DNA of 64,000 nucleotides, from assembly GCA_037501455.1 (NCBI GenBank), contig CM074858.1:76668501-76732500 (forward strand), written 5' to 3'. Under the pieces are notes generated by a model that did not search any database, was not told where the DNA came from, and worked only from the letters and a program-made list of their open reading frames with translations. Source of the stretch: Lantana camara (taxonomy: Eukaryota; Streptophyta; Magnoliopsida; Lamiales; Verbenaceae). The position numbers and the translations under genes were made by a program. Below are positions 2-54,002 of the stretch, one piece after another (the first letter of the stretch is position 1; every line of letters begins with the position of its first letter).

Positions 2-586
2 CGTTGGACTAAGGAAGGTGGTGTTAAACGAGCTAGATCTCCAAAGGTTATTGAAGAAGCCATTGAGAAAATCCAAATAATTCAACAACGTATGAAAGCG
101 GCCCAAGATCGTCAAAAGAGTTATGCCGATCGCCGGAGAAGACCCCTGGAATTCGAAGTCGGAGATAAGGTTTTCTTGAAAGCATCTCCAAGGAAAGGAT
201 TCAGCCGTATTGGTAAAGGTGGAAAGCTCAATCCCCGTTATCTTGGACCTTTTGAAATCCTCGAACGGGTTGGAGAAACTGCATACAGATTGAACTTACA
301 TCCGAACATGACCGGGATTCATAATGTATTCCATGTTTCACAGCTCCGGAAATATTATCCCGATGAATCAACTATTCTCCCAATTGAAGATGTACAGCTT
401 GAACCGGACCTAACCATCAAGAAGAAACCAGAGAGAATCATGGATCGAAAAATGCAAGAGTTAAGAAGTCGGCAAATACCAATGGTTAAAGTGTTATGGA
501 AAGATCAGAAGTCTGAAGAAGCCACTTGGGAAACTGAAGAAAAGATAAGGAAGCTGTATCCGGAATTATTCAGGTCAGACCAGTGA
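2..586 (+). CDS. Ty3/gypsy chromovirus pol, 3' end (element X)
   Basis: This is the C-terminal 194 codons of a gag-pol polyprotein; the 5' part lies outside the window and the frame is open from base 2. The first residues (WTKEGGVKRARSP) belong to the integrase C-terminal region, followed by the plant GPF/Y-type stretch (KVFLKASPRKG, then LNPRYLGPFEILERVGETAY and HNVFHVSQLRKY). The last 50 or so residues form a chromodomain (PERIMDRKM, VKVLWKD, EEATWETEEKIRKLYPELF). Integrase inserts the cDNA, and the chromodomain of this family is known to bias insertion towards heterochromatin. The family is Ty3/gypsy chromovirus, probably the Tekay/Del branch given the chromodomain and the 3-kb LTR. The frame has no stop or frameshift in this stretch. 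The TGA stop overlaps the start of the pre-PPT hairpin. Confidence 0.93.
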   Translation, partial: RWTKEGGVKRARSPKVIEEAIEKIQIIQQRMKAAQDRQKSYADRRRRPLEFEVGDKVFLKASPRKGFSRIGKGGKLNPRYLGPFEILERVGETAYRLNLHPNMTGIHNVFHVSQLRKYYPDESTILPIEDVQLEPDLTIKKKPERIMDRKMQELRSRQIPMVKVLWKDQKSEEATWETEEKIRKLYPELFRSDQ

Positions 587-619
587 ACCTGGGGACCAGG
601 TTCTTTTAAGGGGGGGAGG
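585..619 (+). promoter_or_regulatory. Pre-PPT hairpin and polypurine tract of X
   Basis: GAACCT (585-590) pairs with AGGTTC (598-603) around loop GGGGACC. It is followed by CTTTTAA and the purine run 608-619, which would prime plus-strand synthesis directly before the LTR at 621. The same hairpin position is seen in F, G, H, J, L and the TRIM. Confidence 0.8.
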
Positions 620-7892: not shown

Positions 7893-9748
7893 TGTAACAC
7901 CCCAGTTTTTTTTTTTATAGTACAACATGACGTATGAAATTATGATATATATATATTTAATTATGATTTAATTTGTTTTAAATTTTAGAATTTAATTGTG
8001 ATCTATTTTATGTTAATTAATTTCCGAACATGACTTGAATGTTTCTATTTGCCTAATTTCTAAGTGTAAACATGTTATGCTACTATGTAATATATTCTTT
8101 ATTTGAAATTCTTGAATCAAGTTGATTTAAATGTGAAGATTATGTATGTGAGTGATTCTAAATGATTCTTGTAATGAATGAAATGAACGTTTATACGTCT
8201 TTAAGACTTTAATAGTGCACATGAACGTGTTCATTACATTATAGCATCTTTTCTTCATTCATATCATGATCATTACTTAGCCGTGCGTCTTACATGGTTC
8301 AATTGGAGTCTCGAGTCTCACGAACACGTCTTGTTGTCTCTTGTACAGTTCATCTCCAGGGCGGAGAAATCTTGATCAACTAGGCACTCGGTAACTTGTA
8401 TCCTTGTATCACTATGTTCCAGGTGAGGGTGGTTTGGTTCTAGTTACATATTAAACCCTACAACTTTATGTGACAAGTTTGGCCAAAACCTTATGTATAT
8501 ATATATGTTATTTGCAAAGTAGAGTCATCGAGTAAATTATGATCGAGTAAACCTTTTCTCATGAATTATGAAATATGTTATGTTTCTTATGAATCAAATA
8601 TTTTTGGCGAGAATATGATTATGAACATGATTATGAATGCACGGGCCCAGGGACTTAGTGCAAGTGGCTATCCGGGGAGACAAGGGACTTGTACTAGTCC
8701 CACCACATTTACGGTGATACCGGCCCTCGCTAGGAGGTTTAGCGGGGAATGGGAGCTGAGTGCCCTTGGGGGATTCATGTACCCCCATTGGCCTGTGTAT
8801 GGACCGGTGGTCGGGTCTTGCTAACCCGTCCACCACCCGGAGGTAGAAGGTTGAAACTTATTTTATGATTATGATTATGTTATAACTGATATGCACCGTG
8901 CGGGAAGGCCGGGACACGGATTGCCCAAACGACTATGTCTTATGATATGATATATGATCTGTGTGTATTATGATATATTGCATGATCACCTAATTAATGT
9001 ATTAATGATATTTGTCGTACACGGTCGGAGTTTGGTTGGAGATAATGCACGCTCACTCACCGAGCCTTTAAGTTTATGTATAAATTATGAACTTAATGAA
9101 CTTAAAATGATCGGTCGTAAAGTCCGAGCATTGCTTAGTTATTCTCTTGCCCTTTTGGGAACTAATTTTAAATAAAACCTTGCTCGGGGTTTATGACTTG
9201 CATGTGCATGTTTTATATATACGTATATCGCTCTTGCTCACTCAGTCTTTTAGAGACTGACCCTCTCCCTCCCCAATCTTTTAGTGCACAGGTTTGGCTT
9301 TGGAGTTTCGAGCTAGGCGGTTTTGTGTTGAGTCTTTGAGTCGGTCAGGTTAATCTAGAAGAGTCTTTGCCCTCGCTTATGTATTTAAATTGTATATGAT
9401 TCGGCTTTGTAAACTTATGAACTTGAATTTTTATATATTTGATATTAAATTGCTTTGCCGGACTTCGATATAAATTAAAAGAGGCCTGAGGTGCCCAAGC
9501 CTGCGTGTGGTTGGTGTGTTTAATTTCTGTAGGCCCGTGGCCAATGCATGTGATCGGATTTTGTGTTCCGTTGCATTATGCTTTGTTAGTTGGTTATAAG
9601 TGCAGGGTCTAAGTTCCGCCTAGCTTAGGAGGTTTGTTTTTTTTGTCTCCCGTTCGCTATGGTTTGATACAGGTGTGGACTACCCATTTCGTTACTCGTA
9701 TTGAGCCATAGTGCGGGGGATGTGGTGCCTCACGTGCGGGGTGCTACA
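7893..9748 (+). repeat. G LTR1, with 1.8-kb internal deletion
   Basis: The LTR has intact ends (TGTAACACCCC...GGGGTGCTACA), but at about 7936-7944 it jumps from ACGTATG to the second TA-rich stretch. It lacks the segment found in LTR2 between about 12968 and 14806, so it is 1,856 bp instead of about 3,660. The missing part holds the upstream hairpin, the putative first exon with its donor, and the palindrome cluster. The internal exon (8349-8422) and final acceptor (AG at 9290-9291) remain. The hairpin at 8806-8834 is intact. Confidence 0.87.
8806..8834 (+). promoter_or_regulatory. Conserved LTR stem-loop (CTTGCTA loop), G LTR1
   Basis: GGTGGTCGGGT pairs with ACCCGTCCACC (one T-T mismatch) around loop CTTGCTA. 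Counterparts occur at 30533-30561 (L), 58715-58743 (C), 26172-26199 (H) and near 43118-43150 (K), with paired changes in the stem. Confidence 0.75.
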
Positions 9749-9756
9749 TCCTTAAG

Positions 9757-9835
9757 TGGTATCAGAGCCCGGTTGCAAAACCGGTGTTCTGGAGTCGTGT
9801 TTGAGTCAGTCTAGGTCGTACGGCTTAGGAACTAC
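9757..9835 (+). promoter_or_regulatory. Primer binding site and leader block of G internal 1
   Basis: TGGTATCAGAGCC (9757-9769) is complementary to the 3' end of plant initiator-Met tRNA. It overlaps a hairpin CCGGTT-GCAA-AACCGG (9769-9784). Next comes a block ending TAGGTCGTACGGCTTAGG that is shared with L, H, F and J and could serve RNA packaging or dimerisation (inference). Confidence 0.9.
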
Positions 9836-12677
9836 GTGACAATATGTGTATTGCATCGATCTTAAATATGAAATTTGGATGTCCTTTCGAATTTTGTTGA
9901 ATTATCTGCTGCATTATTCTATGGTCCTTGCCTTTCATGTTGAATATATGCCATGAGCATGCACTAATCGCATGCATATATTCTTGAAATAAGTTATGAA
10001 TTACAGGTTATGAAGATACTATCAAACCACGGCCAAATATCACGCTAACAACGCCCTTTTACAAGTTTTTTTTTTTGGCATAGAAGATAGGAAGGATGCA
10101 ACGGGGATGATTATAGAGAATGGTAGATGCGTTGCTTCATAGATGGAGTTAGAGTAAGGGCTAGGAACCGGAATGGGAGGTTCGACTTTGAAAATGCGAG
10201 GGTAGAGGGACATTTGGTGACAATAAAAGTTAATCTTGGGATGGTTGTGACTCAGAAGATCAATTTATGTGAATCCACTACTTAGAGTGCTTTAATTGGA
10301 TTCAAGGGATTACTCAACCTGAGAGTGGAGTATATGAACGTTGAAGGTAAATTGGGTTCGGTGGGAATTAAGCACCCTGGGTTGTCAAGGAAGAGCTTCT
10401 AAATAATTTAGTAGTTAGAAATCGAGCTTGTAGAAGTCAAGATTGGGAAGAGTTTAGACTTGGGTACTCTGGATTTCGATTAAGATGGAAAACGAGTCGA
10501 AAGAGGATTAGAAGGAGTCAAATAACGTGGAAAATACAAAATTATGGAAGGTGACTATACCATGGACAGGATTTGAATTCATTTTCCAAATCCAAACTGA
10601 ATTGTCATGTTGTGAGGTTGAATTGGAAGATATGGAGCAACAAATGGAAACGGTAAAGAAAGGCAAAGACTCCTTGCAAGGAAATCATGCGCTCAAGTAT
10701 AAGCAATTGGAGGTGAATTAAATTCACAAAGGATAAGCGCGGGATTCTTGATCGAGGTGACGATTAGAAGTAAAGGTCAAATTTCGAGGAGAAGTTTGGA
10801 TGCTAACTCCGTGGATGTGGAAGAATTAGGGATCAAGAAATTGTAATTTCGGATCGTGGAAGACGCAAGTGAAGCACCAAGATTTATGGAAATTTGAAGA
10901 CCGTGGGAAAGACAAGGAATAATCAGCAAGACAAAGTAACCTCGTGATTGGAGAAACGAGGAAGAGATAGTGAGCTGCTGGCTGGCCATCTTGGTGAGAG
11001 GTTCCAGACATTCATAGCACGTGCATCATACTTTGCACCAACTATTTAATTTTTCTTATTTATATTTGTACGTGCACGTGCATTTCTATTTGATTTTATT
11101 GCTTAACGTGTTGCATATCAAATTGTTACAAGAGTGTCACGTGCATCGTCATTTTAACCCGACATGCATTTTAGTGCTTGTTTGATAGGAAGTTCTATCA
11201 TCTTATTTATCAAGTATTTCTTCGTTCGAGTCATATATGAGTTAAGAGGAAAGGAAATAACAGGACGGCACATGACAAGGAAGATGATTCGGGAAATACA
11301 GAACTTCCAGTAAAGGATAGATTGATGGAGAGGAACTCCGAAAAAAAAAAAAAAAAGCGAGGCTAGATTTGGCGTTGGGGTATTTGGGTCGAATAAGAAT
11401 AGGGAAGGGGATTTGGATTATCAAGAGAATTGGGAGGAAAGATAAGAGGATTTCAGTCAAGAAGAATCAATGGAGTTCAGTGTGTAGCGACAGAAAACTT
11501 TAAGGGGAAGAGCATGACCCAGAGGCAAAATTTAAACTTGAGATAGTGATTGAAGGAATAATTAGTGGAAACAACGAAAAATGCAATTAAGAATGATCTG
11601 GGAATTTTATAATAGTGACCGACGAGGAATAAGACAACTTTAAGAGTTGATCATTAAAATGGGAGCTAAGCCACTAAATTCGGACTGAAGATTTTCACGA
11701 GGATTAGATGAAATAGTTTATTGGATGTTTCCACGTATGAAAATTCGACTTGAAGATAAAGGAGTTATGAAGAAATTAAGGAAACTCTCTAGTTGAATTG
11801 TCGAGAGGGAATCGATTCAAATTAGCATAGAAAGGGATGCTAATAAAAAAAAAAAAAAAAAAAATTTGATTCCCTGAATTTGAAAAGAGATTCAAGAAGA
11901 GACAAAAGCGGCAGGGATGATCATTGGGAAACCTAAATGAAACTTCAAGAATTATTAAGAACGTTCTATCTTTGACTCAAGGAATATGGGACCAAATACT
12001 GAATATAACCTTAAGGGGGGTCAAAGAAAATTAACGGAAGATGGGAAATGATTCGTGTTGAGAGAGACCATAAGGATAAACATCTTAAGGTCGGGATTGA
12101 ACCATCAGGGTTGTCCAGAGTGGTTATCCTCGGGGATATATTAGACTTCGATATGGCAAAGGTAATAACTATGGACCTGAGTTCGGGACAGACAATTTAA
12201 GGGTATTCAGGGAGGTCAAGCTCGGTCAATTAAAAAGAATTGGTTGGTCGAACGAAGATTGTGGAAATGGTGAAGACTGGAAACAATACAAGTCAGAAGG
12301 GATCCAAGAGTATAATCCTTAAAGGATTCATCAATTGCTTCACCGGGGTACCCTGAAGAGGTTAAAGACAAGTTGAGCACTAAGTTTATCTTCTGGACAG
12401 ATCATACATCGAACAACGACAACTCACAATTTTAAATTTCGCAACTACGGTGGACGGTACTTATAGCACCCATGATACATGCATCCATGCAAATTTAACT
12501 TAAATAATTTTTATATTAGGTGCTTTGATATCTTACCATGTTAAATTACTTGGATTAATTGATAACCAACGTGGGCGATGTCTGTTACTTGCTTTGGGGT
12601 GTCTTACCTGGTTTTAATTATGGTTTCACGTGTGTGGCTTGGGAGTATTGGAGACTTCCTTGCTTTTATTTTTGTTT

Positions 12678-12864
12678 GAGAGACGGGGTGCTCTCATTGT
12701 TTGTAAGAGACGGGGATGCTCTCATTGTTGTTGGAGAGACGGGGTGCTCTCTTTGCTTGCGAGAGATGGGGTTCTCTCATTGTTGTTGGAGAGACGGGGT
12801 TCTCTCACTGCTGCTCGAGAGACGGGGATCTCTCCTTGTTGTTTGTGAGGAACGGGGTTCCTTC
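12678..12864 (+). repeat. Stem-loop array, G internal 1
   Basis: Seven consecutive units of the type GAGAGA-CGGGGT-TCTCTC, about 30 bp apart, with T-rich spacers. The last unit is GAGGAACGGGGTTCCTTC, in which both arms have changed. The 117-codon frame across this array (12559-12912) is a translation of the repeat and is not called as a gene. Confidence 0.88.
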
Positions 12865-12888
12865 ATTAATTGTTTTCAGACAGATAGT

Positions 12889-12922
12889 GAATTCGAGGAC
12901 GGATTCTTTTAAGGGGGAGAGG
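12889..12922 (+). promoter_or_regulatory. Pre-PPT hairpin and polypurine tract, G internal 1
   Basis: GAATTC-GAGGAC-GGATTC (one mismatch) at 12889-12906, then TTTT and the purine tract AAGGGGGAGAGG (12911-12922) before LTR2. Confidence 0.85.
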
Positions 12923-13073
12923 TTGTAACACCCCAGTTTTTTTTTGTAGTACAACATGACGTATGTGTTTACCAAATTGCGCGAAATAATTATTTATAAG
13001 TGTTTATATATTTAATTTTTATTTAATTATATTAAATGTTAATTACTTTATTTAATTTTATTAATATCAAATG

Positions 13074-13077
<4 letters not shown>

Positions 13078-13128
<51 letters not shown>
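13078..13128. repeat. (TA)n microsatellite, G LTR2
   Basis: Uninterrupted AT/TA run. The copy in LTR3 (about 19918-19957) is shorter and interrupted. A second run in LTR2 lies at 14757-14808 and its LTR3 counterpart at about 21583-21613. Confidence 0.95.
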
Positions 13129-13131
<3 letters not shown>

Positions 13132-14382
13132 AATTGTGTACTTGTGCATGAATTTGTAATGCATGCATTTTACAATTTTAAATTAATTATGCATGCATGT
13201 ATTATAAATTATATATATACATACGTATGCATGCATTAATATATATATAATATATTATATATGAATTTAATTGCATATTTTGTAAATATTATGATTTCTT
13301 TTGATACATTGCGTATGAGTGACATTTACGTGCTTCGTTTCTATATGAATTGATACCGAAATTTCATGCAAATTTAATATGTTGAACTTATACGTGTCTT
13401 GTATATGAATATTTGTTCGTTTCGTATTTTAGGATTCATTTGCATATGTTTCGAATTTAATTTGAATTTTGGAATCCAAGTCGGGGGCTAACTCGCACTT
13501 AGCGCACCCTTGGTTCCGTATTTAACATCTTGACCTCGGGAACTCGGAATCGAGTTCCGTCAACTTCGTTGAACTCATAACGAAAATTTGGGTTCAATAA
13601 ACTTAACCTCATATTTTTCTAGGACCATTTGAAACCCCCGAAATTCAACCGAAAAACGAAACTAGAGCAAATCTGCCACAGTTTACCAAAATATTCATAT
13701 CTCACTCAAACCTTGACCAAATTAACTATGGTTTGATTTATTTGATCCCTAACTCAACCCTCTAACCAGCCTTAATCACCCCAAACCGAGATAACCCTCA
13801 TTACTTGGAGAAAATTCAGCCAAAACCTTCTGCTCTCCAGTTTTCCCGTAGCTCAAGCCAACCCTTGGAGATTCAAGCTCAAATCTCTTCCAAACCTCCA
13901 TTAATCCACAAGGTAAGCTTGGATATGTTATGTACATTCAATATGAGTCATTTTAATTCATTTATCCCTAAATTTGAGCATGGTTTCATGAGTTTTGGCT
14001 GAGATGGTTATATATTTAGGTTTTGAGCATTTTGGTTGATCTCTTTCAATTCTTGAGCTTTTTGAATTATTCCAAGCATGAAAATGATTGTTTTTATCTC
14101 CTCTCTACATTTATGGTGATGTATTAGCTGGTAGTTGAGGCATTCATGAGCTACCATTAATGAAACCTTGAGATTATTTCATGAAAAGAGCACCCTTGCC
14201 TTCATCTCACGTATGATCCTTCATGGGACTGGATTGCATGTTGTTTTGGAGTATTTTTGATGCATAATTGTTGCCTTGCCTTACCTGATCTTGTTGGGTT
14301 GAAGTTGATTTGTTGATGCTCTGTTTTTCTCCTGTTTTTGCGCCATTTTCTGCTGCAACGCATAGGGTCGCGGGCATGAAAA

Positions 14383-14507
14383 TCAGTCGCGCCCGCGACT
14401 GATATTTGAGCTACTCACGTATTCGGTGAAATTGGATCAAAAATTCGGAAAATTATGGGTAGCGGCCGCTACCATTTCATGAAGAAAATGGGTCGCGGCC
14501 GCGACCC
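14383..14507. repeat. Palindrome cluster, G LTR2
   Basis: Three GC-rich palindromes in an AT-rich setting: CAGTCGCG-CC-CGCGACTG (14384-14401), GGTAGCGGCCGCTACC (14458-14473) and GGGTCGCGGCCGCGACCC (14490-14507). The same three are in LTR3 at 21209-21333. They fall in the putative first LTR intron. Confidence 0.85.
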
Positions 14508-14754
14508 CTGTTCATTTCTGCAAAAATTCAGTTTTTCAAACTCTGTTAAATGGTTTAAATTTAGCTCTAATTCTTCTTCCTTACCTGCATGCATGCATTT
14601 GGACGTATATAAATATATATACATGCATGATGTTGTGTAAATTGTTTGGTTTTAATATGTGCATGCTTTGATTTTTTTAATTAGTTGATTTAATATGTGC
14701 ATGCATGTTTACGTGTATTATTATATGTATATGTATATTAATATTAAATCTATG

Positions 14755-14810
<56 letters not shown>

Positions 14811-15199
14811 ATTATGATTTAATTTGTTTTAAATTTTAGAATTTAATTGTGATCTATTTTATGTTAATTAATTTCCGAACATGACTTGAATATTTCTATT
14901 TGCCTAATTTCTAAGTGTAAACATGTTATGCTACTATGTAATATATTCGTTATTTGAAATTCTTGAATCAAGTCGATTTAAATGTGAAGATTATGTATGT
15001 GAGTGATTTTAAATGATTCTTGTAATGAATGAAATGAACGTTTATACGTCTTTAAGACTTTAATAGTGCACATGAACGTGTTCATTACATTATAGCATCT
15101 TTTCTTCATTCATATCATGATCATTACTTAGCCGTGCGTCTTATATGGTTCAATTGGAGTCTCGAGTCTCACGAACACGTCTTGTTGTCTCTTGTACAG

Positions 15200-15273
15200 T
15201 TCATCTCCAGGGCGGAGAAATCTTGATCAACTAGGCACTTGGTAACTTGTATCCTTGTATCACCATGTTCCAG
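15200..15273 (+). other. Putative internal LTR exon, G LTR2
   Basis: 74 nt bounded by a pyrimidine-rich acceptor TTGTCTCTTGTACAG and a donor CCAG|GTGAGG. The equivalents in LTR1 (8349-8422), LTR3 (22006-22079), L (30094-30167, 37055-37128) and C (59121-59194) are also exactly 74 nt. Transcription is not shown by the sequence. Confidence 0.55.
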
Positions 15274-18200
15274 GTGAGGGTGGTTTCGTTCTAGTTACAT
15301 ATTAAACCCTACAACTTTATGTGACAAGTTTGGCCAAAACCTTATGTATATATATATGTTATTTGCAAAGTAGAGTCATCGAGTAAATTATGATCGAGTA
15401 AACCTTTTCTCATGAATTATGAAATATGTTATGTTTCTTATAAATCAAATATTTTTGGCGAGAATATGATTATGAACATGATTATGAATGCACGGGCCCA
15501 GGGACTTAGTGCAAGTGGCTATCCGGGGAGGCAAGTGCCGACGGTGATCCCTTGTACTAGTCCCACCACATTTACGGTGATACCGGCCCTCGCTAGGAGG
15601 TTTAGCGGGGAATGGGAGCTGAGTGCCCTTGGGGGATTCATGTGCCCCCATTGGCCTGTGTATGGACCGGTGGTCGGGTCTTGCTAACCCGTCCACCACA
15701 CGGAGGAAGAAGGTTGGAACTTATTTTATGATTATGATTATGTTATAACTGATATGCACCGTGCGGGAAGGCCGGGATACGGATTGCCCAAACGACTATG
15801 TCTTATGATATGATATATGATCTGTGTGTATTATGATATATTGCATGATCACCTAATTAATGTATTAATGATATTTGTCGTACACGGTCGGAGTTTGGTT
15901 GGAGATAATGCACGCTCACTCGCCGAGCCTTTATGTTTATGTATGAATTATGAACTTAATGAACTTAAAATGATCGGTCATAAAGTCCGAGCATTGCTTA
16001 GTTATTCTCTTGCCCTTTTGGGAAGTAATTTTAAATAAAACCTTGCTCGGGGTTTATGACTTGCATGTGCATGTTTTATATATACGTATATTGCTCCTGC
16101 TCACTCAGTCTTTTAGAGACTGACCCTCTCCCTCCCCAATCTTTTAGTGCGCAGGTTTGGCTTTGGAGTTTCGAGCTAGGCGGTTTTGTGTTGAGTCTTT
16201 GAGTCGGTTAGGTTAATCTAGAAGAGTCTTTGCACTCGCATATGTATTTGAATTGTATATGATTCGGCTTTGTAAACTTATGAACTTGAATCTTTATATA
16301 TTTGATATTAAATTGCTTTGCCGGACTTCGATATAAATTAAAAGAGGCCTGAGGTGCCCAAGCCTGCGTGTGGTTGGTGTGTTTAATTTCTGCAGGCCCG
16401 TGGCCAATGCATGTGATCGGATTTTGTGTTCCGTTGCATTATGCTTTGTTAGTTGGTTATAAGTGCAGGGTCTAAGTTCCGCCTAGCTTAGGAGGTTTGT
16501 TTTGTTTGTCTCCCGTTCGCTATGGTTTGATACAGGTGCGGACTACCCATTTCGTTATTCGTATTGAGCCATAGTGCGGGGGATGTGGTGCCTCACGTGC
16601 GGGGTGCTACATCCTTAAGTGGTATTAGAGCCCGGTTGCAACACCGGTGTTCTGGAGTCGTGTTTGAGTCAGTCTAGGTCGTACGGCTTAGGAACTACGT
16701 GACAATGTGTGCATTGCATCGATCTTAAATATGAAATTTGGATGTCCTTTCGAATTTTGTTGAATTATCTGCTGCATTATTCTATGATCCTTGCCTTTCA
16801 TGTTGAATATGTGCCATGAGAATGCACTAATCGCATGCATATATTCTTGAAATAAGTTATGAATTACAGGTTATGAAGACACTATCAAACCACGGCCAAA
16901 TATCACGCTAACAACGCCCTTTTACAAGTTTTTTTTTAGGCCTAGAAGATAGGAAGGATGCAACGGGGATGAATATAGAGAATGCTAGATGCGTGGCTTC
17001 ATAGATGGAGTTAGAGTAAGGGCTAGGAACCGGAATGGGAGGTTCGACTTTGAAAATGCGAGCGTAGAGGGACATTTGGTGACAATAAAGGTTAATCGTG
17101 GGATGGTTGTGACTCAGAAGATCAATTTATGTGAATCCACTACTTAGAGTGCTTTAATTGGATTCAAGGGATTGCTCAACCTAAGAGTGGAGTATATGAA
17201 CCTTGAAGGTAAATTGGGTTCGGTGGGAATTAAACACCCTGGGTTGTCAAGGAAGAGCTTCTAAATAATTTAGTAGTTAGAAATCGAGCTTGTAGAAGTC
17301 AAGATTGGGAAGAGTTTAGACTTGGGTACTCTGGATTTCGATTAAGATGGAAAACGAGTCGGAAGAGGATTAGAAGGAGTCAAATAACGTGGAAAATACA
17401 AAATTATGGAAGGTGACGAATTCATTTTCCAAATCCAAACTGAATTGTCATATTGTGAGGTTGAATTGGAAGATATGGAGCAACAAATGGAAACGGTAAA
17501 GAAAAGCAAAGACTCCTTGCAAGGAAATCGTGCGCTCAAGTATAAGCAATTGGAGGTGAATTAAATTCACAAAGGATAAGCACGGGATTCTTGATCGAGG
17601 TGACGATTAGAACTAAAGGTCAAATTTCGAGGAGAAGTTTGGATGCTAACTCCGTGGACGTGGAAGAATTAGGGATCAAGAAATTGCAATTTCGGATCGT
17701 GGAAGACGCAAGTGAAGCACCAAGATTTATGGAAATTTGAAGACCGTGGGAAAGACAAGGAATAATCAGCAAGTCAAAGTAACCTCGTGATTGGAGAAAC
17801 GAGGAAGAGATAGTGAGCTGCTGGCTGGCCATCTTGGTGACAGGTTCCAGATATTCATAGCACGTGCATCATACTTTGCACCAACTATTTAATTTTTCTT
17901 ATTTATATTTGTACGTGCGCGTGCATTTCTATTTGATTTTATTGCTTAACGTGTTGCATATCAAATTGTTACAAGAGTGTCACGTGCATCGGCATTTTAA
18001 CCCGACATGCATTTTAGTGCTTGTTTGATAGGAAGTTCTATCATCTTATTTATCAAGTATTTCTTCGTTCAAGCCATATCTGAGTTAAGAGGAAAGGAAA
18101 CAACAGGACGACACATGACAAGGAAGATGATTCGGGAAATACAGAACTTCCAGTAAAGGATGGATTGATGGAGAGGAACTCCGGAAAAAAAAAAAAAAAA

Positions 18201-19522
18201 GCGAGGCTAGATTTGGCGTTGGGGTATTTGGGTCGAATAAGAATAGGGAAGGGGATTTGGATTATCAAGAGAATTGGGAGGAAAGATAAGAGGATTTCGG
18301 TCAAGAAGAATCAATGGAGTTCAGTGTGTAGCGACAGAAAACTTTAAGGGGAAGAGCATGACCCAGAGGCAAAATTTAAACTTGAGATAGTGGTTGAAGG
18401 AATAATTAGTGGAAACAATGAAAAATGCAATTAAGAATGATCTGGGAATTTTATAATGGTGACCGACGAGGAATAAGACAACTTTAAGAGTTGATCATTA
18501 AAATGGGAGCTAAGCCACTAAATTCGGACTGAAGATTTTCACGAGGATTAGAGGAAATAGTTTATTGGATGTTTCCACGTATGAAAATTCGACTTGAAGA
18601 TAAAGGAGTTATGAAGAAATTAAGGAAACTCTCTAGTTGAATTGTCGAGAGGGAATCGATTCAAATTAGGATAGAAAGGGATGTTATCAAAAAAAAAAAA
18701 AAAAAAAAATTTGATTCCCTGAATTTGAAAAGAGATTCAAGAAGAGACAAAAGCGGCAGGGATGATCATTGGGAAACCTAAATGAAACTTCAAGAATTAT
18801 CAAGAACGTTCTATCTTTGACTCAAGGAATATGGGGCCAAATACTGAATATAACCTTAAGGGGGGTCAAAGAAAATGAACGGAAGATGGGAAATGATTCG
18901 TGTTGAGAGAGACCATAAGGATAAACATCTTAAGGGCGGGATTGAATCATCAGGGTTGTCCAGAGTGGTTATCCTTGGGGATATATTAGACTTCGATATG
19001 GTAAAGGTAATAACTATGGACCTGAGTTCGGGACAGACAATTTAAGGGTATTCGGGGAGGTCAAGCTCGGTCAATTAAAAAGAATTGGTTGGTCGAACGA
19101 AGTTTGTGGAAATGGTGAAGACTGGAAACAGTACAAGTCAGAAGGGATCCAGGAGTATAATCCTTAAAGGATTCATCAATTGCTTCACCGGGGTACCCTG
19201 AAGAGGTTAAAGACAAGTTGAGCACTAAGTTTATCTTCTGGACAGATCATACATCGAACAACGACAACTAACAATTTTAAATTTCGCAACTACGGTGAAC
19301 GGCACTTATAGCACCCATGATACATGCATCCATGCAAATTTAACTTAAATAATTTTTATATTAGGTGCTTTGATATCTTACCATGTTAAATTACTTGGAT
19401 TAATTGATAACCAACGTGGGCGATGTCTGTTACTTGCTTTGGCGTGTCTTACCTGGTTTTAATTATGGTTTCACGTGTGTGGCTTGGGAGTATTGGAGAC
19501 TTCCTTGCTTTTATTTTTGTTT

Positions 19523-19709
19523 GAGAGACGGGGTGCTCTCGTTGTTTGTAAGAGACGGGGATGCTCTCATTGTTGTTGGAGAGACGGGGTGCTCTCTTTG
19601 CTTGCGAGAGACGGGGTTCTCTCATTGTTGTTGGAGAGACGGGGTTCTCTCACTGCTGCTCGAGAGACGGGGCTCTCTCCTTGTTGTTTGTGAGGAACGG
19701 GGTTCCTTC
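19523..19709 (+). repeat. Stem-loop array, G internal 2
   Basis: The same seven units as in internal 1 with a few substitutions; the last (19692-19709) again has the GAGGAAC/GTTCCTTC stem. Confidence 0.88.
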
Positions 19710-19733
19710 ATTAATTGTTTTCAGACAGATAGT

Positions 19734-19767
19734 GAATTCGAGGACGGATTCTTTTAATGGGGAGAGG
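19734..19767 (+). promoter_or_regulatory. Pre-PPT hairpin and mutated purine tract, G internal 2
   Basis: GAATTC-GAGGAC-GGATTC at 19734-19751. The purine tract carries a T in place of the third purine. Confidence 0.8.
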
Positions 19768-19768
19768 T

Positions 19769-19924
19769 TGTAACACCCCAGTTTTTTTTTATAGTACAAC
19801 ATGACGTATGTGTTTACCAAATTGCGTGAAATAATTATTTATAAGTGTTTATATATTTAATTTTTATTTAATTATATTAAATGTTAATTACTTTATTTAA
19901 TTTATTAATATCAAATGTATATAT

Positions 19925-19956
<32 letters not shown>

Positions 19957-21580
19957 TGTAATTGTGTACTTGTGCATGAATTTGTAATACATGCATTTTA
20001 CAATTTTAAATTAATTATGCATGCATGTATTATAAAGTATATATATATACGTATGCATGCATTAATATATATATAATATGTTATATATGAATTTAATTGC
20101 ATATATTGTAAATATTATGATTTCTTTTGATACATTGCGTATGAGTGACATTTACGTGCTTCGTTTCTATATGAATTGATACCGAAATTTCATGAAAATT
20201 TAATATGTTGAACTTATACGTGTCTTGTATATGAATATTTGTTCGTTTCGTATTTTAGGATTCATTTGCATATGTTTCGAATTTAATTTGAATTTTGGAA
20301 TCCAAGTCGGGGGCTAACTCGCACTTAGCGCACCCTTGGTTCCGTATTTAACATCTTGACCTCGGGAACTCGGAATCGAGTTCCGTCAACTTCGTTGAAC
20401 TCATAACGAAAATTTGGGTTCAATAAACTTAACCTCATATTTTTCTAGGACCATTTGAAACCCCCGAAATTCAACCGAAAAACGAAACTAGAGCAAATCT
20501 GCCACAGTTTACCAAAATATTCATATCTCACTCAAACCTTGACCAAATTAACTATGGTTTGATTTATTTGAACCCTAACTCAACCCTCTAACCAGCCTTA
20601 ATCACCCCAAACCGAGATAACCCTCATTACTTGGAGAAAATTCAGCCAAAACCTTCTGCTCTCCAGTTTTCCCGTAGCTCAAGCCAACCCTTGGAGATTC
20701 AAGCTCAAATCTCTTCCAAACCTCCATTAATCCACAAGGTAAGATTGGATATGTTATGTACATTCAATATGAGTCATTTTCATTCATTTATCCCTAAATT
20801 TGAGCATGGTTTCATGAGTTTTGGCTGAGATGGTTATATATTTAGGTTTTGAGCATTTTGGTTGATCTCTTTCAATTCTTGAGTTTTTTGAATGATTCCA
20901 AGCATGAAAATGATTGTTTTTATCTCCTCTCTACATTTATGGTGATGTATTAGCTGGTAGTTGAGGCATTCATGAGCTACCATTAATGAAACCTTGAGAT
21001 TATTTCATGAAAAGAGCACCCTTGCCTTCATCTCACGTATGATCCTTCATGGGACTGGATTGCATGTTGTTTTGGAGTATTTTTGATGCATAATTGTTGC
21101 CTTGCCTTACCTGATCTTGTTGGGTTGAAGTTGATTTGTTGATGCTCTGTTTTTCTCCTGTTTTTGCGCCATTTTCTGCTGCAACGCATAGGGTCGCGGG
21201 CATGAAAATCAGTCGCGCCCGCGACTGATATTTGAGCTACTCACGTATTCGGTGAAATTGGATCAAAAATTCTGAAAATTATGGGTAGCGGCCGCTACCA
21301 TTTCATGAAGAAAATGGGTCGCGGCCGCGACCCCTGTTCATTTCTGCAAAAATTCAGTTTTTCAAACTCTGTTAAATGGTTTAAATTTAGCTCTAATTCT
21401 TCTTCCTTATCTGCATGCATGCATTCGGACGTATATAAATATATATACATGCATGATGTTGTGTAAATTGTTTGGTTTTAATATGTGCATGCTTTTATTT
21501 TTTTAATTAGTTGATTTAATATGTGCATGCATGTTTACGTGTATTATTATATGTATATGTATATTAATATTAAATCTATG

Positions 21581-21613
<33 letters not shown>

Positions 21614-23402
21614 TTAATTATGATTTAATTTGTTTTAAATTTTAGAATTTAATTGTGATCTATTTTATGTTAATTAATTTCCGAACATGACTTGAATGTT
21701 TCTATTTGCCTAATTTCTAAGTGTAAACATGTTATGCTACTATGTAATATATTCGTTATTTGAAATTCTTGAATCAAGTTGATTTAAATGTGAAGATTAT
21801 GTATGTGAGTGATTTTAAATGATTCTTGTAATGAATGAAATGAACGTTTATACGTCTTTAAGACTTTAATAGTGCACATGAACGTGTTTATTACATTATA
21901 GCATCTTTTCTTCATTCATATCATGATCATTACTTAGCCGTGCGTCTTATATGGTTCAATTGGAGTCTCGAGTCTCACGAACACGTCTTGTTGTCTCTTG
22001 TACAGTTCATCTCCAGGGCGGAGAAATCTTGATCAACTAGGCACTCGGTAACTTGTATCCTTGTATCACCATGTTCCAGGTGAGGGTGGTTTCGTTCTAG
22101 TTACATATTAAACCCTACAACTTTATGTGACAAGTTTGGCCAAAACCTTATGTATATATATATGTTATTTGCAAAGTAGAGTCATCGAGTAAACCTTTTC
22201 TCATGAATTATGAAATATGTTATGTTTCTTATGAATCAAATATTTTTGGCGAGAATATGATTATGAACATGATTATGAATGCACGGGCCCAGGGACTTAG
22301 TGCAAGTGGCTATCCGGGGAGGCAAGGGCCGACGGTGACCCCTTGTACTAGTCCCACCACATTTACGGTGATACAGGCCCTCGCTAGGAGGTTTAGCGGG
22401 GAATGGGAGCTGAGTGCCCTTGGGGGATTCATGTACCCCCATTGGCCTGTGTATGGACCGGCGGTCGGGTCTTGCTAACCCGTCCACCACCCGGAGGAAG
22501 AAGGTTGGAACTTATTTTATGATTATGATTATGTTATAACTGATATGCACCGTGCGGGAAGGCCGGGACACGGATTGCCCAAACGACTATGTCTTATGAT
22601 ATGATATATGATCTTTGTGTATTATGATATATTGCATGATCACCTAATTAATGTATTAATGATATTTGTCGTATACGGTCGGAGTTTGGTTGGAGATAAT
22701 GCACGCTCACTCGCCGAGCCTTTATGTTTATGTATGAATTATGAACTTAATGAACTTAAAATGATCGGTCGTAAAGCCCAAGCATTGCTTAGTTATTCTC
22801 TTGCCCTTTGGGGAACTTATTTTAAATAAAACCTTGCTCGGGGTTTATGACTTGCATGTGCATGTTTTATATATACGTATATCGCTCCTGCTCACTCAGT
22901 CTTTTAGAGACTGACCCTCTCCCTCCCCAATCTTTTAGTGCACAGGTTTGGCTTTGGAGTTTCGAGCTAAGCGGTTTTGTGTTGAGTCTTTGAGTCGGTC
23001 AGGTTAATCTAGAAGAGTCTTTGCACTCGCTTATGTATTTGAATTGTATATGATTCGGCTTTGTAAACTGATGAACTTGAATCTTTATATATTTGATATT
23101 AAATTGCTTTGCCGGACTTCGATATAAATTAAAAGAGGCCTGAGGTGCCCAAGCCTGCGTGTGGTTGGTGTGTTTAATTTCTGCAGGCCCGTGGCCAATG
23201 CATGTGATCGGATTTTGTGTTCCGTTGCATTATGCTTTGTTAGTTGGTTATAAGTGCAGGGTCTAAGTTCCGCCTAGCTTAGGAGGTTTGTTTTGTTTGT
23301 CTCCCGTTCGCTATGGTTTGATACAGGTGCGGACTACCCATTTCGTTACTCGTATTGAGCCATAGTGCGGGGGATGTGGTGCCTCACGTGCGGGGTGCTA
23401 CA
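19769..23402 (+). repeat. G LTR3 (3,634 bp)
   Basis: Same modules as LTR2: upstream hairpin 20365-20384, donor GT at 20739-20740, palindromes 21209-21333, exon-like segment 22006-22079, acceptor AG at 22944-22945, and end GGGGTGCTACA at 23402. It is followed by the right TSD copy ATCCC. Together with LTR1 it forms the outer pair of the original insertion. Confidence 0.9.
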
Positions 23403-23407
23403 ATCCC

Positions 23408-24724
23408 CGTCTAGGAGTAGTTCGGACATTTTCGCACGATAGGAGGGCCTAAAGTGATTCAAATCCCACCGTTTGAATCCATCCAAACCACCCACAATTC
23501 GGAATCACGAATGGGGTCGTTAAAGAACTTCCACCACTCGTTCTCCAACCCAAATGGGCCTTCTAACACCACTTTAACTCGTGGCTCGAAGTTGAGTTCC
23601 CAAGCATTGGCCTCCAGGAACGCGATGTAAGATCTGTTGCAAAGACCAACCCTCAACTAACGGCGAAGCAAAAGCACTCGCACCCTCAAAACTACCCCGA
23701 AAGGTCACTAACAACAAACACACACAAACAAGCCTAAAAGATGCATATCAGGTTAAAAGTGCAATTGGAATGCATCATATAGTCACCAATCGAGCACATA
23801 ATAGCACAAGTAGTCAATAAAATTAATAGCACAAGTACCTCAATTCTCGGTTTCATGTAGGTCTCCAATTTGAAATCTTGTGCTCGGTTGATCCGCAAGC
23901 ATAACACCTATTCAGCCTATCCCAGCACGCGCCGTAGGCATGGTTGATTCCTCCGCAATGGGAACACGGTTGGAGCTCTTTCCTTGGCTTTGCAGGGTTC
24001 CCGATCTTATGTTTCTTCCCATGAATCTTCTTAGTTCGATTCCCGGATTGGTGAGATCATCCCTTCACTTGTAGATGGGAGCATAAACTCGATTCAAGTC
24101 TAGGCTCCAATTCATCCTTTTTTTTTATCTTTTTCCATAATCCACGTTTCACTTTTAAAGCCCTCTTTGTGGCTTTATCCCACATACTCGTATCCTTCGC
24201 AATTAATGCTTCCTTCATTTGATCCCGAAGACCTTCTACAAAATACCTAGCCTTCATCTCGTCATTGCTTGTAATGTGGGGCACATACACACCCAATCTC
24301 TCAAATTCGTCTAAGTACTCCATAACCGTTTTACCTCTTTGTTTTAACGCGAGGAATTCTTCGAGTCTTCGTCCTTGTAAGACGACCAGTGCGAACCTTT
24401 TCCTAAATTCACGAACAAACACATTCAACGTCAACTCTTCGTTTGATGCCTTTAATTGTTGGGCAACTTCTTTCCACCGTTGTCTTGATTGACCTTGTTG
24501 AAGTTGTATTGCAAGACGGGCCATGTCTTGAGAATTGCACGGCCATATTTCAAATATGCTCTCTATCTTCGAGAGCCATTCCTCAGCCTTTATTTCGTTT
24601 CCTTCTCGGAATTGGGGTACATCATTGCCATCGGATTCATAGGTGGTACTTCGGTTGACGACTGCCCTTGATTGTACGGATGTTGATGAGAAGGTTGATC
24701 GGAGTGTTGCCGACGTGGTGGCAT
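23408..24724 (-). pseudogene. gag remnant of element F
   Basis: Read on the minus strand, a start MPPRRQHSDQPSHQ lies at about 24724. After a frame change, FREGNEIKAEEWLSKIESIF leads into the gag core (residues ARLAIQLQQG, NVFVREFRKRFA, LEEFLALKQRGKTVMEYLDEF, ARYFVEGLRDQM). A stop at 24057-24059 interrupts the frame. Beyond it, in frame, is a CCHC zinc knuckle CSHCGGINHAYGAC (23925-23966) and a second, degenerate one. Gag would form the virus-like particle and bind RNA. There is no protease, RT or integrase, and the remaining stretch to the purine tract is only about 0.5 kb, so F is a gag-only, non-autonomous copy. The stop and frameshift show decay. Confidence 0.82.
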
Positions 24725-24909
24725 CCCGAAAATGTCAACAACTACAATAGAGGTATATGCATGTCGATTAGTAAGTGCATATGTCACGTAATTGTATCAA
24801 TCAAGAGCAATTAGGAGGTGCAATGCATTGCGTAATATAAAATCAACCAAGTAATAGAATTTTCGTATGCAAATCATACCAAATCGTGATGCAAACGTGC
24901 ACATAGCAA

Positions 24910-24987
24910 ATTGTCCTATCTCGTACGACCTAAACAGTCACAACACAACTCTGAACCCCGGTTTTGCAACCTAGTTCTCTGATACCA
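24910..24987 (-). promoter_or_regulatory. Primer binding site and leader block of F
   Basis: On the minus strand TGGTATCAGAG (24977-24987) follows the LTR after a short CTTAAG spacer. GGTT-GCAA-AACC and the conserved block with TAGGTCGTACGAGATAGG come next, as in G, L and H. Confidence 0.82.
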
Positions 24988-24994
24988 CTTAAGA

Positions 24995-25454
24995 TGCAGC
25001 ATCCCAAGCAGTGGGCACCACATCCCCGCACTATCACTCGACACGTGTAACAAAACAAAGACTCCGCAAACGTACCAAGCCATAGCGAATGGGAGACAAA
25101 CAAAACTAAACCTAAGCTAGGAAGAACATAGACCCTGAACTTCACCGTACAAATAAAAATTATGCGAAAGCGTGAACTTGCTATACCAAATTCAAAACCA
25201 AACAAACAGGTGACGGGTTCCACTAACATATATTCATCTATATAAAACTATTTTGAAACCTACCTATTATTTGATTTACTCCTTATACATATTATTATAC
25301 AATATCAATCTTTACGAGGAGCACACTTTTACGTCGGAATCAGGATCTTACCCAGACATTGTATACTTTACTCCTACTATTACTAAGAACTGATTCCCGA
25401 CAAAACAAGCAAAATACTTTATCATTATTATTATGGGCCTTGGCGCTTAAACCG
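24995..25454 (-). repeat. 5' LTR of element F, 3' part
   Basis: The LTR end reads GGGATGCTGCA on the minus strand (24995). The conserved end module (CCCATTCGCTATGGCTTGG, GTGCGGGGATGTGGTGCC) is present. The sequence continues to 25454, where H interrupts it. AACCG (25450-25454) is the expected left TSD copy for H. Confidence 0.8.
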
Positions 25455-31460: not shown

Positions 31461-31510
31461 TGGTATCAGAGCCCGGTTGCAAAACCGGTGTTCTTGAGTC
31501 ATGTTTGAGT
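31461..31510 (+). promoter_or_regulatory. Primer binding site and leader hairpin of L
   Basis: TGGTATCAGAGCC at 31461-31473, followed by CCGGTT-GCAA-AACCGG, identical to G internal 1. Confidence 0.92.
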
Positions 31511-34281: not shown

Positions 34282-34499
34282 GAGAGACGGGGTGATCTCT
34301 TTGTTTGCAAGAGACGGGGATTCTCTTATTTTATTTGAGAGATGGGGTACTCCCTTTACCTGCGAGAGACGGGGTTCTCTCATTGCTGCTCGAGAGACGG
34401 GGCTCTCTCCTTGTTGCTTGCGAGAGACGGGGTTCTCTCATTGCTGCTCGAGAGACGGGGCTCTCTCCTTGTCGCTTGTGAGAGATGGGGAATCTCTCA
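34282..34499 (+). repeat. Stem-loop array, L
   Basis: Eight units of GAGAGA-CGGGGT-TCTCTC type. Four central units form a recent tandem duplication of an about 58-bp two-unit block. Frames across the array (for example 34235-34588) are repeat translations, not genes. Confidence 0.88.
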
Positions 34500-34522: not shown

Positions 34523-34557
34523 GAATCCGAGGACGGATTCTTTTTAAGGGGGAGAGA
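34523..34557 (+). promoter_or_regulatory. Pre-PPT hairpin and polypurine tract of L
   Basis: Perfect stem GAATCC-GAGGAC-GGATTC at 34523-34540, then TTTTTAAGGGGGAGAGAT before the 3' LTR. Confidence 0.88.
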
Positions 34558-39032: not shown

Positions 39033-39069
39033 ATTCTCCCCCCCTTAAAAGGACCTGGTCCCCAGGTCC
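39033..39069 (-). promoter_or_regulatory. Polypurine tract and pre-PPT hairpin of H
   Basis: On the minus strand GGACCT-GGGGACC-AGGTCC (39051-39069) precedes TTTTAAGGGGGGGAGAAT and the LTR. The loop equals that of X. Confidence 0.87.
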
Positions 39070-39101: not shown

Positions 39102-39236
39102 AAGAGAGCCCGGTTCTTAGACAAGCCATGAGAGAGCACCGTTTCTCAAACAAGTAGAGAAAGAGCCCCGTCACTCTAACGCGAAATGAGAGCACCCCGT
39201 CTCTCTAACACGCAACGAGAGAACCGCGTCGCTCAA
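39102..39236 (-). repeat. Stem-loop array, H
   Basis: Five units on the minus strand, including GTTAGAGAGACGGGGTGCTCTC-like and AGAGTGACGGGGCTCTTTCT-like forms. Some stems are partly decayed. It lies at the same place, before the purine tract, as in G, L and J. Confidence 0.78.
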
Positions 39237-39648: not shown

Positions 39649-40841
39649 TGTTGGTGTAGTGGGCCCGAGGCAGAGTGACGGTACAGTAGAATATTTTAAA
39701 AAATTTCGCCATAAATTCGTTATCAAAATATTTCAAAAAATATTTTAATAAAGCAGCGGAATAAATCGGGCAGCATAACTCAAATATATGCAGGCATTGA
39801 TAACATAATTTTAAATCATCTAGCATACAATCCCAATAAGCAAATATTAATTTGGGCAGCATAACGGTATTACCGTACTGCAAATTAGCTATCAACGGCA
39901 CTTTTCCAGCACCTCGATATTTTCTCGTGAAACCGGTAGAGCTTCCCCGCAATATCGCCGATTAAGAAATTGGAGTGTGGGCTCCGGCAGTATTTCGCTA
40001 AATACTTTGAGAAAATATTTTTCAGAAAAACCCTTTTTTCGAAAAACTGAAAATCCCTATTTTCTAATAATTAAGTGGATTATATATTAATTATATAACC
40101 ACCTAATTAAGTAATTAATTAATCTAATTAAAGATTAATTAATCAAGTATAGAGAGAGAGTTTCGGGAGCTGAATATTGAAAGCCAAAAATTGTTTTGTA
40201 AATGAAATGGATGCACAGCCTATTTATAGGCACAGATTGAGGGGTAAAATGGCCAATTCGAAGGAAAAACGGTTGCCGTGCATCTTTAGCCGCCAAGTTC
40301 ATGAAATCCGAGGACATCACGTCGTAGCACGTATCGCCACGAGTCCAATGCAGCGCGGCACACGCCGAACGGGCCCCGCACGCCCCCACACGCGCCGCCC
40401 ATGAGGCGGCTGTGTGTTCGCGCATGTGAACCACACGCTGGCACGAGCATGTGCCACGTGTCCGGTTCGGCCGGTCCGACCGGCGGTCTATCGGTTCAGA
40501 CCGGTTCACCCTTGTGACGAAGTTCGATGTTTCCAATCTCATTGAAAATCATCAATGTGTTATAATTGGAAACTTCATTTCCCTGTGACGAAAGACTAAT
40601 CATCTTATATAACACATTATAGTCTCGATAAGAACATTTTCTTATCATACCAACTAGAACTTTAATGAGACGTGATTTCTGGTTTTTTAAGTCTTTTCCT
40701 ATGAAACACATTTCATATAACAATACCATCACACGTCATTAATTATGAAATTCGTAAAATACTCATAACTTGTGAAATTTCAGTTTTATTAATCCAAAAT
40801 ATTTACAATATAATTGGATTTTCAGGGCATTAATCCCAAAA
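39649..40841 (-). mobile_element. Ty1/copia-type solo LTR (1,193 bp)
   Basis: The insertion is flanked by GTAAG (39644-39648 and 40842-40846). Ends are TGTTGG...CCAAAA on the plus strand, one change from perfect TGTTGG/CCAACA inverted ends. A TATA box CCTATAAATAGG on the minus strand (40219-40230) sets the orientation. The TSD and the interruption of recognisable gag make this a clear solo LTR; the copia assignment rests on termini and TATA placement. Confidence 0.85.
40219..40230 (-). promoter_or_regulatory. TATA box of the copia solo LTR
   Basis: CCTATAAATAGG on the minus strand, followed by a CTCTCTCT-rich leader around 40150. Confidence 0.7.
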
Positions 40842-41949
40842 GTAAGTATGGGTGTCTCTTCCGTAATACGTGCAAAGAGGCTTCCCCGAAGGTGATGTTG
40901 AAGCCGAGTTATGTCAAACTCCCAAACCCGATCCGGTGGTTCGGTTCTTCTTCTTCTGAGATCTTTCTTGAGATGACGATGTATGGTAAGAAATGGGCCT
41001 CTTCCCATTATTAAAATCCGATCCGGAATTAGATATAAGTCTCCTTGTATTTACCGAATCCTCCACTTTTAAAGCTTTTGAAGTAGCCTTCCTCCAAGTG
41101 CTAGTATTGACAGCTTCAATTGCTGCTTGTATGTCCGACCTCAAACCCTGCACGAATTACATGGCCTTATGAAAATCATCGCTCGCGATATTGGGTGCAT
41201 ACTTAGACAATCTCTGAAACTCTGTTATGTAGTCGGCAACTGATTTACCCCCTTGCTTGAGCTCCGTGAATTCCTTGAGCCTTTTAGTGCGAGATGAAGG
41301 AGGAATGAACTTGTTCTTAAATTCTCTAACGAAAATCTCCCATGTCACTTCCTCCTCGGCGGCATCCAAGACAATCTTTGTGCTTTCCCACCACGAATAA
41401 GCTTCTCCTTGAACAAGAGTAAGAGTGCATCAGGCCTTCTCTTGAGACTCGCAAGGAATAAGCTTCCGCACCCTCTCCACTTCCTTGAGCCACTGCTCGG
41501 CTTGAATGTCATTCCCTTTGAAGAACTTTGGGGGTTGTTGGTTCTGAAATTCCCGAAGTATAGCCGAAATCGGTGCTGGTTGTGGTGGAGCTTAAGCCAG
41601 TGGTTCTGGCGGAATATAGTCCCTTATTCTTTGATCAACTAGAAGAACAATGGAATTATGAAAATCTAGTGGTTGAGCCTGAGGGGGTGGATGTTGAGGA
41701 ACCCTAGGGGATCGATCACGGTGATGTCTCCGTTGACCTGGAGACTGTCCACGGCGAGGACGACCTCGAGGCATCCTGTAATCAAGACATTAGATATGCA
41801 AGTTGGATTAGTGGATGCAAATTATTACAATTAAGGTCATAAGATGCAAATAAAACATATAATTCAATTAATTCAAAGAATTCAAGTGAGGTCAAATAAG
41901 TGCAAGTAAGTTCAATTAAGATGCGAGACTCTCAAATTAGCAAATAATC

Positions 41950-50650: not shown

Positions 50651-50682
<32 letters not shown>

Positions 50683-53968: not shown

Positions 53969-54002
53969 GGACATGAGGACAGGTCCTTTTGAAGGAGGGG
54001 AG
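53969..54002 (+). promoter_or_regulatory. Pre-PPT hairpin and polypurine tract of J
   Basis: GGACAT-GAGGAC-AGGTCC (one mismatch) at 53969-53986, then TTTT and GAAGGAGGGGAG (53991-54002) before the LTR. Confidence 0.83.

Follow-up and report, generated by a model that had tools for sequence, protein, structure and literature searches.

Arrays of short hairpins lie upstream of the polypurine tract in long terminal repeat (LTR) elements of Lantana camara, and at the genomic sites compared they are a property of elements that lack a coding end. At least two perfect hairpins were found at 50 of 55 sites that lack a match to a chromodomain or integrase end and at none of 45 sites that have one, where "coding" denotes such a match within about 600 bases upstream and nothing more. 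This suggests that the hairpins help gene-less elements to use the machinery of their relatives. Gene-less LTR elements can fill plant genomes, and the array is a concrete candidate for the signal by which helpers recognise them. The reading we favour, with a probability of roughly 0.4, is that the arrays are a cis-acting RNA module whose G-rich loops are shown to helper Gag, allowing packaging in trans.

Hairpin arrays in the window

The sequence analysed is a stretch of 64,000 nucleotides (the window). It holds five arrays, in four elements designated G, L, H and J.

12678–12864, plus strand: array in the first internal region of G, 7 loop-anchored units of RGAGA-CGGGGN-TCTC type
19523–19709, plus strand: array in the second internal region of G
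34282–34499, plus strand: array of L, 8 loop-anchored units
39102–39236, minus strand: array of H, 5 units, decayed in the window copy
53303–53690, plus strand: array of J, 12 loop-anchored units and a decayed thirteenth, two loop classes

All five stand where a preliminary description of the window had placed them, upstream of the purine tract and with units 28–34 bp apart. Each unit consists of a purine-rich 5' arm (89% purine over 42 distinct units), a loop, a pyrimidine-rich 3' arm and then a T-rich spacer. There are 5–12 hairpins per array and the loops mostly contain GGGG, those of J also TGCTGGAT. Read 5' to 3', the order is hairpin array, a separate hairpin, and the purine tract itself. 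The stems quoted in the preliminary description were located (GAGAGA/TCTCTC; GAGAAA/TTTCTC at 53627; CAGAAAGA/TCTTTCTG at 53401; CGAGGGA/TCCCTTG at 53470; GTCTGA/TCAGAC near 53536), as were both of its loop classes; J is the source of four of these five stems.

Perfect stems of at least 6 bp were counted and compared with 2,000 dinucleotide shuffles of each array. The first and second G arrays hold three such stems each, and L and J six each; every one of these counts was reached in 0 of 2,000 shuffles, in agreement with the stem-loops originally reported. The window copy of H has no stem of at least 6 bp and a single one of at least 5 bp, a count matched by 765 of 2,000 shuffles. Sixteen H relatives, fetched from 40 places listed, possess five mostly clean units, and we therefore regard the window copy as decayed. 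For G and L, 30 loci each were fetched, window copies included; because relatives of all four elements were fetched by array similarity, the presence of an array in them is by construction. The commonest differences among the G and L loci are C-to-T and G-to-A, a pattern that resembles decaying copies which were presumably methylated. Copies of J differ in array length by gain or loss of whole units, and in G and L individual units have been swapped for copies of their neighbours (for example at loci L032, L051 and L063).

Elements that carry the arrays

The landmarks of the carriers, and of a chromovirus stretch at the start of the window, are as follows.

92–586, plus strand: entry inside the chromovirus stretch at 1–620
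9757–9768, plus strand: primer binding site of G, TGGTATCAGAGC, after the first G LTR
12911–12921, plus strand: polypurine tract of G, AAGGGGGAGAG; next LTR from 12924
12924–16611, plus strand: middle LTR of G, TGTAACACCCC ... GGGGTGCTACA
31461–31472, plus strand: primer binding site of L
34546–34556, plus strand: polypurine tract of L; 3' LTR from 34559
39036–39046, minus strand: polypurine tract of H; 3' LTR from 39032 (minus)
41052–41426, minus strand: gag relic of H, 43% identical to a gag fragment at 24057–24524
53991–54002, plus strand: polypurine tract of J; 3' LTR from 54005

Element G (7893–23402) is a three-LTR tandem of the form LTR–internal–LTR–internal–LTR, with LTRs starting at 7893 (shortened), 12924 and 19769 and two internal regions of about 3.2 kb each. 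In L, LTRs of 3.86 kb starting at 27597 and 34559 enclose 3.1 kb, and in J the upstream LTR copy is read as interrupted. The LTRs of G, L and H start with TGTAACRCCC, the exception being the window 3' LTR of L, and end with GGGGYGCTACA. Eight bases beyond the LTR end all three have TGGTATCAGAGC, which differs by one base in the second G copy; we take it to be a primer binding site for initiator-Met tRNA.

The internal region of L has no open reading frame (ORF) longer than 132 amino acids from stop to stop, and that of G none of at least 120 amino acids with a start codon. Reverse transcriptase and integrase were not found in G or L, and H has only the gag relic. There are two ORFs in H (160 and 135 amino acids), of which the longer gives a weak Pfam match (E 0.04); two L ORFs and one J ORF gave no Pfam match. 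The part read of a further array element, L201, comprises its LTR, the primer binding site at 2688 and the greater part of the internal region, and no ORF there exceeds 115 amino acids.

Elements known as LARDs possess LTRs, a primer binding site and a purine tract, and their internal region is non-coding and of kilobase size. The array carriers fit that layout: G and L show all of these features, L201 shows them over most of its length, and H is less clean, with its gag relic and ORFs of 135–160 amino acids. No hairpin array is described for LARDs among the matches listed in our literature search. At the LTR start, Del/Tekay elements have a U3 att of TGTAACACCC type, with bases 3, 6, 9 and 10 conserved, and at the U5 end an att of type A (GGG at −8 to −10) or type B (TTC), according to the available part of PMC4029996. 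The U3 form is present in G (TGTAACACCC), in L at 27597 and H (TGTAACGCCC) and in J (TGTAACATCC); the window 3' LTR of L starts with TGTAAATCCC, in which base 6 is changed. At the U5 end G, L and H have GGGGYGCTACA, which is of type A, and J has ACTGTTACA, which matches neither type at an LTR end that is itself a prediction. Judged by these sequence features the array carriers are probably Ty3/gypsy elements of a non-autonomous, LARD-like kind, and the LTR ends of G, L and H are of Del/Tekay type. The LTR starts and purine-tract hairpin types of the array elements are those of coding elements.

Several observations on these elements may be recorded here. The G LTR contains three perfect GC-rich palindromes within about 130 bp (AGTCGC-GCCC-GCGACT, GGTAGC-GGCC-GCTACC and GGTCGC-GGCC-GCGACC, at 14383–14509 and 21209–21335), which recall the palindromic motifs of Sirevirus LTRs. 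Elsewhere in the genome several copies of G, H and J are spaced about 4.4–7.5 kb apart, so that whole-element tandems seem to be frequent. On the minus strand at 24057–25000 a gag fragment directly adjoins, on the internal side, the end of an LTR with its primer binding site; it seems to be a gag-carrying relative cut short beside G. ARAGORN predicts a tRNA-Met at 40350–40440 on the minus strand, possibly spuriously.

A separate hairpin next to the purine tract

A single hairpin, distinct from the array and missed by the preliminary description, directly precedes the purine tract in G, L, H, J and the chromovirus at 1–620.

585–603, plus strand: chromovirus hairpin, GAACCTGG-GGA-CCAGGTTC, overlapping the stop codon; no array
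12889–12906, plus strand: G hairpin, first copy, GAATTCG-AGGA-CGGATTC
19734–19751, plus strand: G hairpin, second copy
34523–34540, plus strand: L hairpin, GAATCCG-AGGA-CGGATTC
39051–39069, minus strand: H hairpin, GGACCTGG-GGA-CCAGGTCC
53969–53986, plus strand: J hairpin, one stem base changed in the window copy

Of 20 fetched J relatives, 14 have this hairpin with Watson-Crick pairs throughout. A half-site pattern composed of the loop end, the 3' arm and TTTTAAGGGGG was counted across the genome (1.27 Gb in 378 contigs). It occurs 6,753 times (3,306 + 3,447) and its reversed control twice (1 + 1). At 100 of these sites the hairpin was read out: it pairs at every position in 79, and the stems GAATCCG (31 sites), GGACCTGG (29), GAATCTGG (14) and GAACCTGG (2) each occur with their own complement, while J contributes a further stem, GGACCTG. 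Where pairing fails, A-C (29 cells) outnumbers G-U (9 cells), as in decayed copies. The commonest distance from the end of a coding match to the motif is 9 bases (19 of 45 coding sites). We infer that this hairpin belongs to purine-tract handling and is common to the helpers. Its 6,753 exact half-sites in one genome also make it a practical marker by which coding elements and their non-coding partners can be located jointly.

Arrays and coding ends at 100 sites

The census comprises the first 100 listed of the 6,753 half-sites, all of them on one contig (C1, 1.7–35.2 Mb); 40 were picked by hand for variant types and the remaining 60 of the 100 listed were then added. The J backbone lies outside it. 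The contrast between 0 of 45 sites with a chromodomain end and 50 of 55 without is highly significant (Fisher 7e-23), and 44 of the 55 have at least three hairpins. Counting loop-anchored units instead, at least two are found at 1 of 45 coding sites and at 50 of 55 others. Five sites without a coding match fall below the hairpin threshold (L172, L181, L187, L191 and L200), of which L181 and L187 nonetheless hold four and three loop-anchored units; conversely, L129 has two hairpins and no loop-anchored unit. Finding hairpins by their loop is partly circular, and the loop tally was accordingly made on hairpins found by pairing alone: a GGGG loop is present in 178 of 203 such hairpins at the 55 non-coding sites and in none of the 14 found at the 45 coding sites.

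The carriers examined are non-autonomous, as had been claimed, and the limit to elements without a coding end is much sharper than that claim. Single linkage by upstream homology nevertheless joins 43 of the 55 non-coding sites with G, L and H in one lineage, with J separate; since most array elements form one lineage and J a second, a single origin, or two, may underlie the exclusion.

The census also bears on the part the array might play at the purine tract. We considered the array as a standard part of purine-tract function and rejected it: none of the 45 coding sites carries one, so the tract cannot need it. A general role in plus-strand priming, among the functions offered in the preliminary description, is disfavoured because coding relatives with a similar purine-tract hairpin lack the array.

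Pairing of the arms

If stems change while remaining paired, each 5' arm should fit its own 3' arm better than those of other units. We permuted arms within each copy, matching every 5' arm to 3' arms that belong to other units, and used 21 copies of J, 31 each of G and L (each set including a window copy twice) and 16 of H, from which the window copy, with too few anchored units, was dropped. In J the true partner was best in each of the 21 copies, with a mean of −9.4 kcal/mol against −6.3 (p≤0.01). That level was reached by 0 of 31 G, 0 of 31 L and 1 of 16 H copies, and p≤0.05 by 13, 1 and 8, respectively; stems in these three families are near-uniform, and arm permutation yields little there. 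A further 46 loci, being the census sites with at least four anchored units, gave −7.62 against −6.64 kcal/mol when their 247 units were pooled, and 0 of 500 permutations did as well; taken singly, the true partner wins at 40 loci, 16 of them at p≤0.05 and 6 at p≤0.01. The paired change claimed at the outset is therefore strong in J, significant in the pooled loci, weak in G and H, and absent in L.

The association can also be read position by position. Five core pairs could be tested among 261 distinct units, which are related to one another. At four of them A or G on the 5' side predicts T or C on the 3' side, namely at pairs 2, 3, 4 and 6 (odds ratios 9–25, p from 1e-5 to 2e-14), with pair 5 unassociated. 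Sliding the arms by one or two bases gave weaker and mixed signals, some at p<0.05. For the J family the covariation figures overstate certainty, because of the relatedness of the sequences and because well-paired copies served to define the stems: both-sided changes occur in 6 of 77 pairs (13 cells), and in 2,000 column shuffles the paired fraction and the 13 cells were reached by none, the 6 pairs by 93 and the number of extra pair types, which is thus not above shuffles, by 439; when substitutions were re-dealt on the tree in 400 runs, the paired fraction of 0.966 exceeded all simulations and both-sided change was modest (6 pairs reached by 40 runs, 13 cells by 13).

Folding of the whole region as RNA, put forward earlier as a check, divided the three families folded: J beats its shuffles (z −4.40, 0 of 100), but L, at z −0.59 (52 of 200), and G, at z −0.61 (60 of 200), do no better than theirs. 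All arms cross-complement, and units could therefore mispair. An excess of G-U over A-C pairs was not significant in the pooled data (shared 19:9, p 0.087; private 24:17, p 0.35). By family, J has 30 G-U against 10 A-C, and G, L and H together 13 against 16; over pairs 1–6 of the 261 distinct units, A-C (100) is nearly as frequent as G-U (130). Changes per column in J are 0.77 for stems, 0.91 for loops, 0.96 downstream and 1.12 for spacers, and J loops are by this measure no better conserved than stems. The proposal that selection on structure, rather than drift, maintains the stems is thus borne out in part: pairing outlasts stem change in J and in the pooled loci, but the comparison of G-U with A-C is not significant and palindrome correction is not separated from selection.

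Template switching within imperfect palindromes corrects arms toward complementarity. The main rival to a packaging module builds on this process. According to it, one old non-autonomous lineage carries a neutral minisatellite in its 3' region, which is free of genes; slippage or strand transfer in the course of reverse transcription multiplies the units, and template switching keeps the arms complementary without any function. It is the strongest of the rivals, yet we consider it somewhat unlikely. The gain and loss of whole units in J, the replacement of G and L units by neighbours' copies, the linkage of the array elements into one lineage, the failure of G and L to fold above shuffles, and the small margin by which J loops vary less than spacers (0.91 and 1.12) all agree with it; tandem repeats before the 3' LTR are, moreover, common in plant elements, and a strand-transfer origin has been proposed for them (available parts of PMC7004042 and PMC11963269). 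However, palindrome correction would tend to remove the G-U pairs found in the stems, and it leaves unexplained the GGGG loop of the 178 pairing-only hairpins, for which common descent of the units could account. The same loop is carried by the G/L/H and J backbones, which upstream homology does not link.

Those G-U pairs also weigh against a function at the level of DNA, in which the arms would form cruciforms or repeated protein sites beside the LTR, for example in transcription. Sirevirus LTRs do have palindromic repeated motifs that are thought to be regulatory (available part of PMC2829016), but G-U pairs are mismatches in DNA and a stem of variable sequence makes a poor protein site. We judge such a function highly improbable.

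Comparison with known elements

The closest likeness in position is to the 3' repeats of Ogre/Retand (Tat) elements and the minisatellites of soybean Gmr9, which are short tandem repeats of variable unit number between the internal region and the 3' LTR (PMC11963269, PMC7004042, PMC3305785, as far as available). Those repeats are described downstream of gag-pol, unlike the arrays, and at the 45 chromodomain-end sites no repeats accompany the coding region. The words "hairpin", "stem" and "secondary structure" are absent from PMC11963269 and PMC3305785, and "hairpin" from PMC7004042; the available parts of these sources describe no exclusion from coding elements.

Sireviruses, too, combine purine-rich motifs that recur close to the 3' LTR with a stem-loop at the terminal tract. 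They are Ty1/copia elements, however, whose motifs are identical octamers, in contrast to hairpins with changing stems, and their terminal inverted repeat extends into the LTR (available part of PMC2829016). Multiple identical tracts of this kind were not found in the elements checked: the tract motif occurs once in the first G copy and in L, as the tract itself, and once in J, inside the array.

This comparison raises the possibility that the 5' arms (GAGAGACGGGG) act as repeated purine tracts and so provide extra plus-strand primers, a role that has been suggested for the multiple tracts of Sireviruses. The arms are 89% purine, the purine tract of yeast Ty3 is GAGAGAGAGGAAGA (available part of PMC11381356), and the linker of Sireviruses, close to the 3' LTR, contains four tracts on average. 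Yet coding relatives with a similar purine tract manage without an array, the tract motif is unrepeated inside the arrays of the first G copy and L and occurs once inside that of J (the three checked), and the upstream tracts of Sireviruses are free of inverted repeats in the available part of PMC2829016, whereas the arms of the present arrays are tied up in hairpins. An array of extra primers is in our estimation improbable.

Among the matches listed, no title or abstract opening named hairpin arrays before the purine tract of a plant element, in a search that covered few subscription journals. An exact array unit had no match in viral_contigs and three in genome_contigs, in bacterial genome bins, which we take as chance. 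Eleven stretches in viral_contigs fitted the chromodomain protein pattern, none of them confirmed, and the purine-tract pattern matched there once, in DNA that is phage-like judging by its sequence. These searches thus yielded no related sequence from another genome. A protein search with the chromodomain fragment returned many plant relatives.

A candidate module for packaging in trans

Under the favoured reading the module would act within the genomic RNA, where repeated G-rich loops would form a high-avidity site for the nucleocapsid part of helper Gag, and an RNA that translates nothing would thereby be packaged in trans. Gene-less elements share a need for service in trans, and hairpins of variable stem that present a loop would suit a protein that reads loops; the Gag nucleocapsid is for these reasons a natural candidate. 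A parallel is found in the packaging signals of the retrovirus MMTV, whose Gag binds hairpin-exposed single-stranded purines, including GGAG (ssPurines); these signals are near the 5' end, and the likeness is one of analogy, with no sequence homology claimed (available part of PMC8096270). One may tentatively go further and regard the array as a tag exclusive to gene-less elements that outcompetes the helpers' own RNA for helper Gag, its stems drifting freely as long as the loop is presented.

Yeast Ty3 depends on POL and on the two UTRs for the localisation and packaging of its RNA. The known dimer and packaging signals of Ty3-type RNA are mainly at the 5' end, a position that counts against the module (available part of PMC11381356). 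Also counting against it are the single linked lineage, the folding of G and L, the cross-complementary arms, the modest both-sided change and the number of extra pair types in J, the comparison of G-U with A-C (in the purine-tract hairpins as well) and the ORFs of H. The rate of change in J loops counts against it too, and roughly offsets the support from the loop tally made by pairing alone.

Retroviral transport elements sit between the genes and the 3' LTR. A role of the 3' region in nuclear export, RNA stability or as a small-RNA decoy would accordingly fit both the position in the RNA and the gene-free carriers, but no specific signature of it was found, and a comparison of the 64-kb window with Rfam gave nothing at or above gathering score. 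We regard it as decidedly improbable.

Other features around element J

At 55134–55847 there is a 271-bp tandem repeat of 2.6 copies, within which the primer binding site next to the LTR end of J occurs twice (55308 and 55579). Two inverted repeats of 471 bp, 97% complementary, at 49495–49965 and 52473–52943 flank and partly overlap an open gag-protease ORF of 592 amino acids (49903–51681, minus strand), which seems to be nested inside J.
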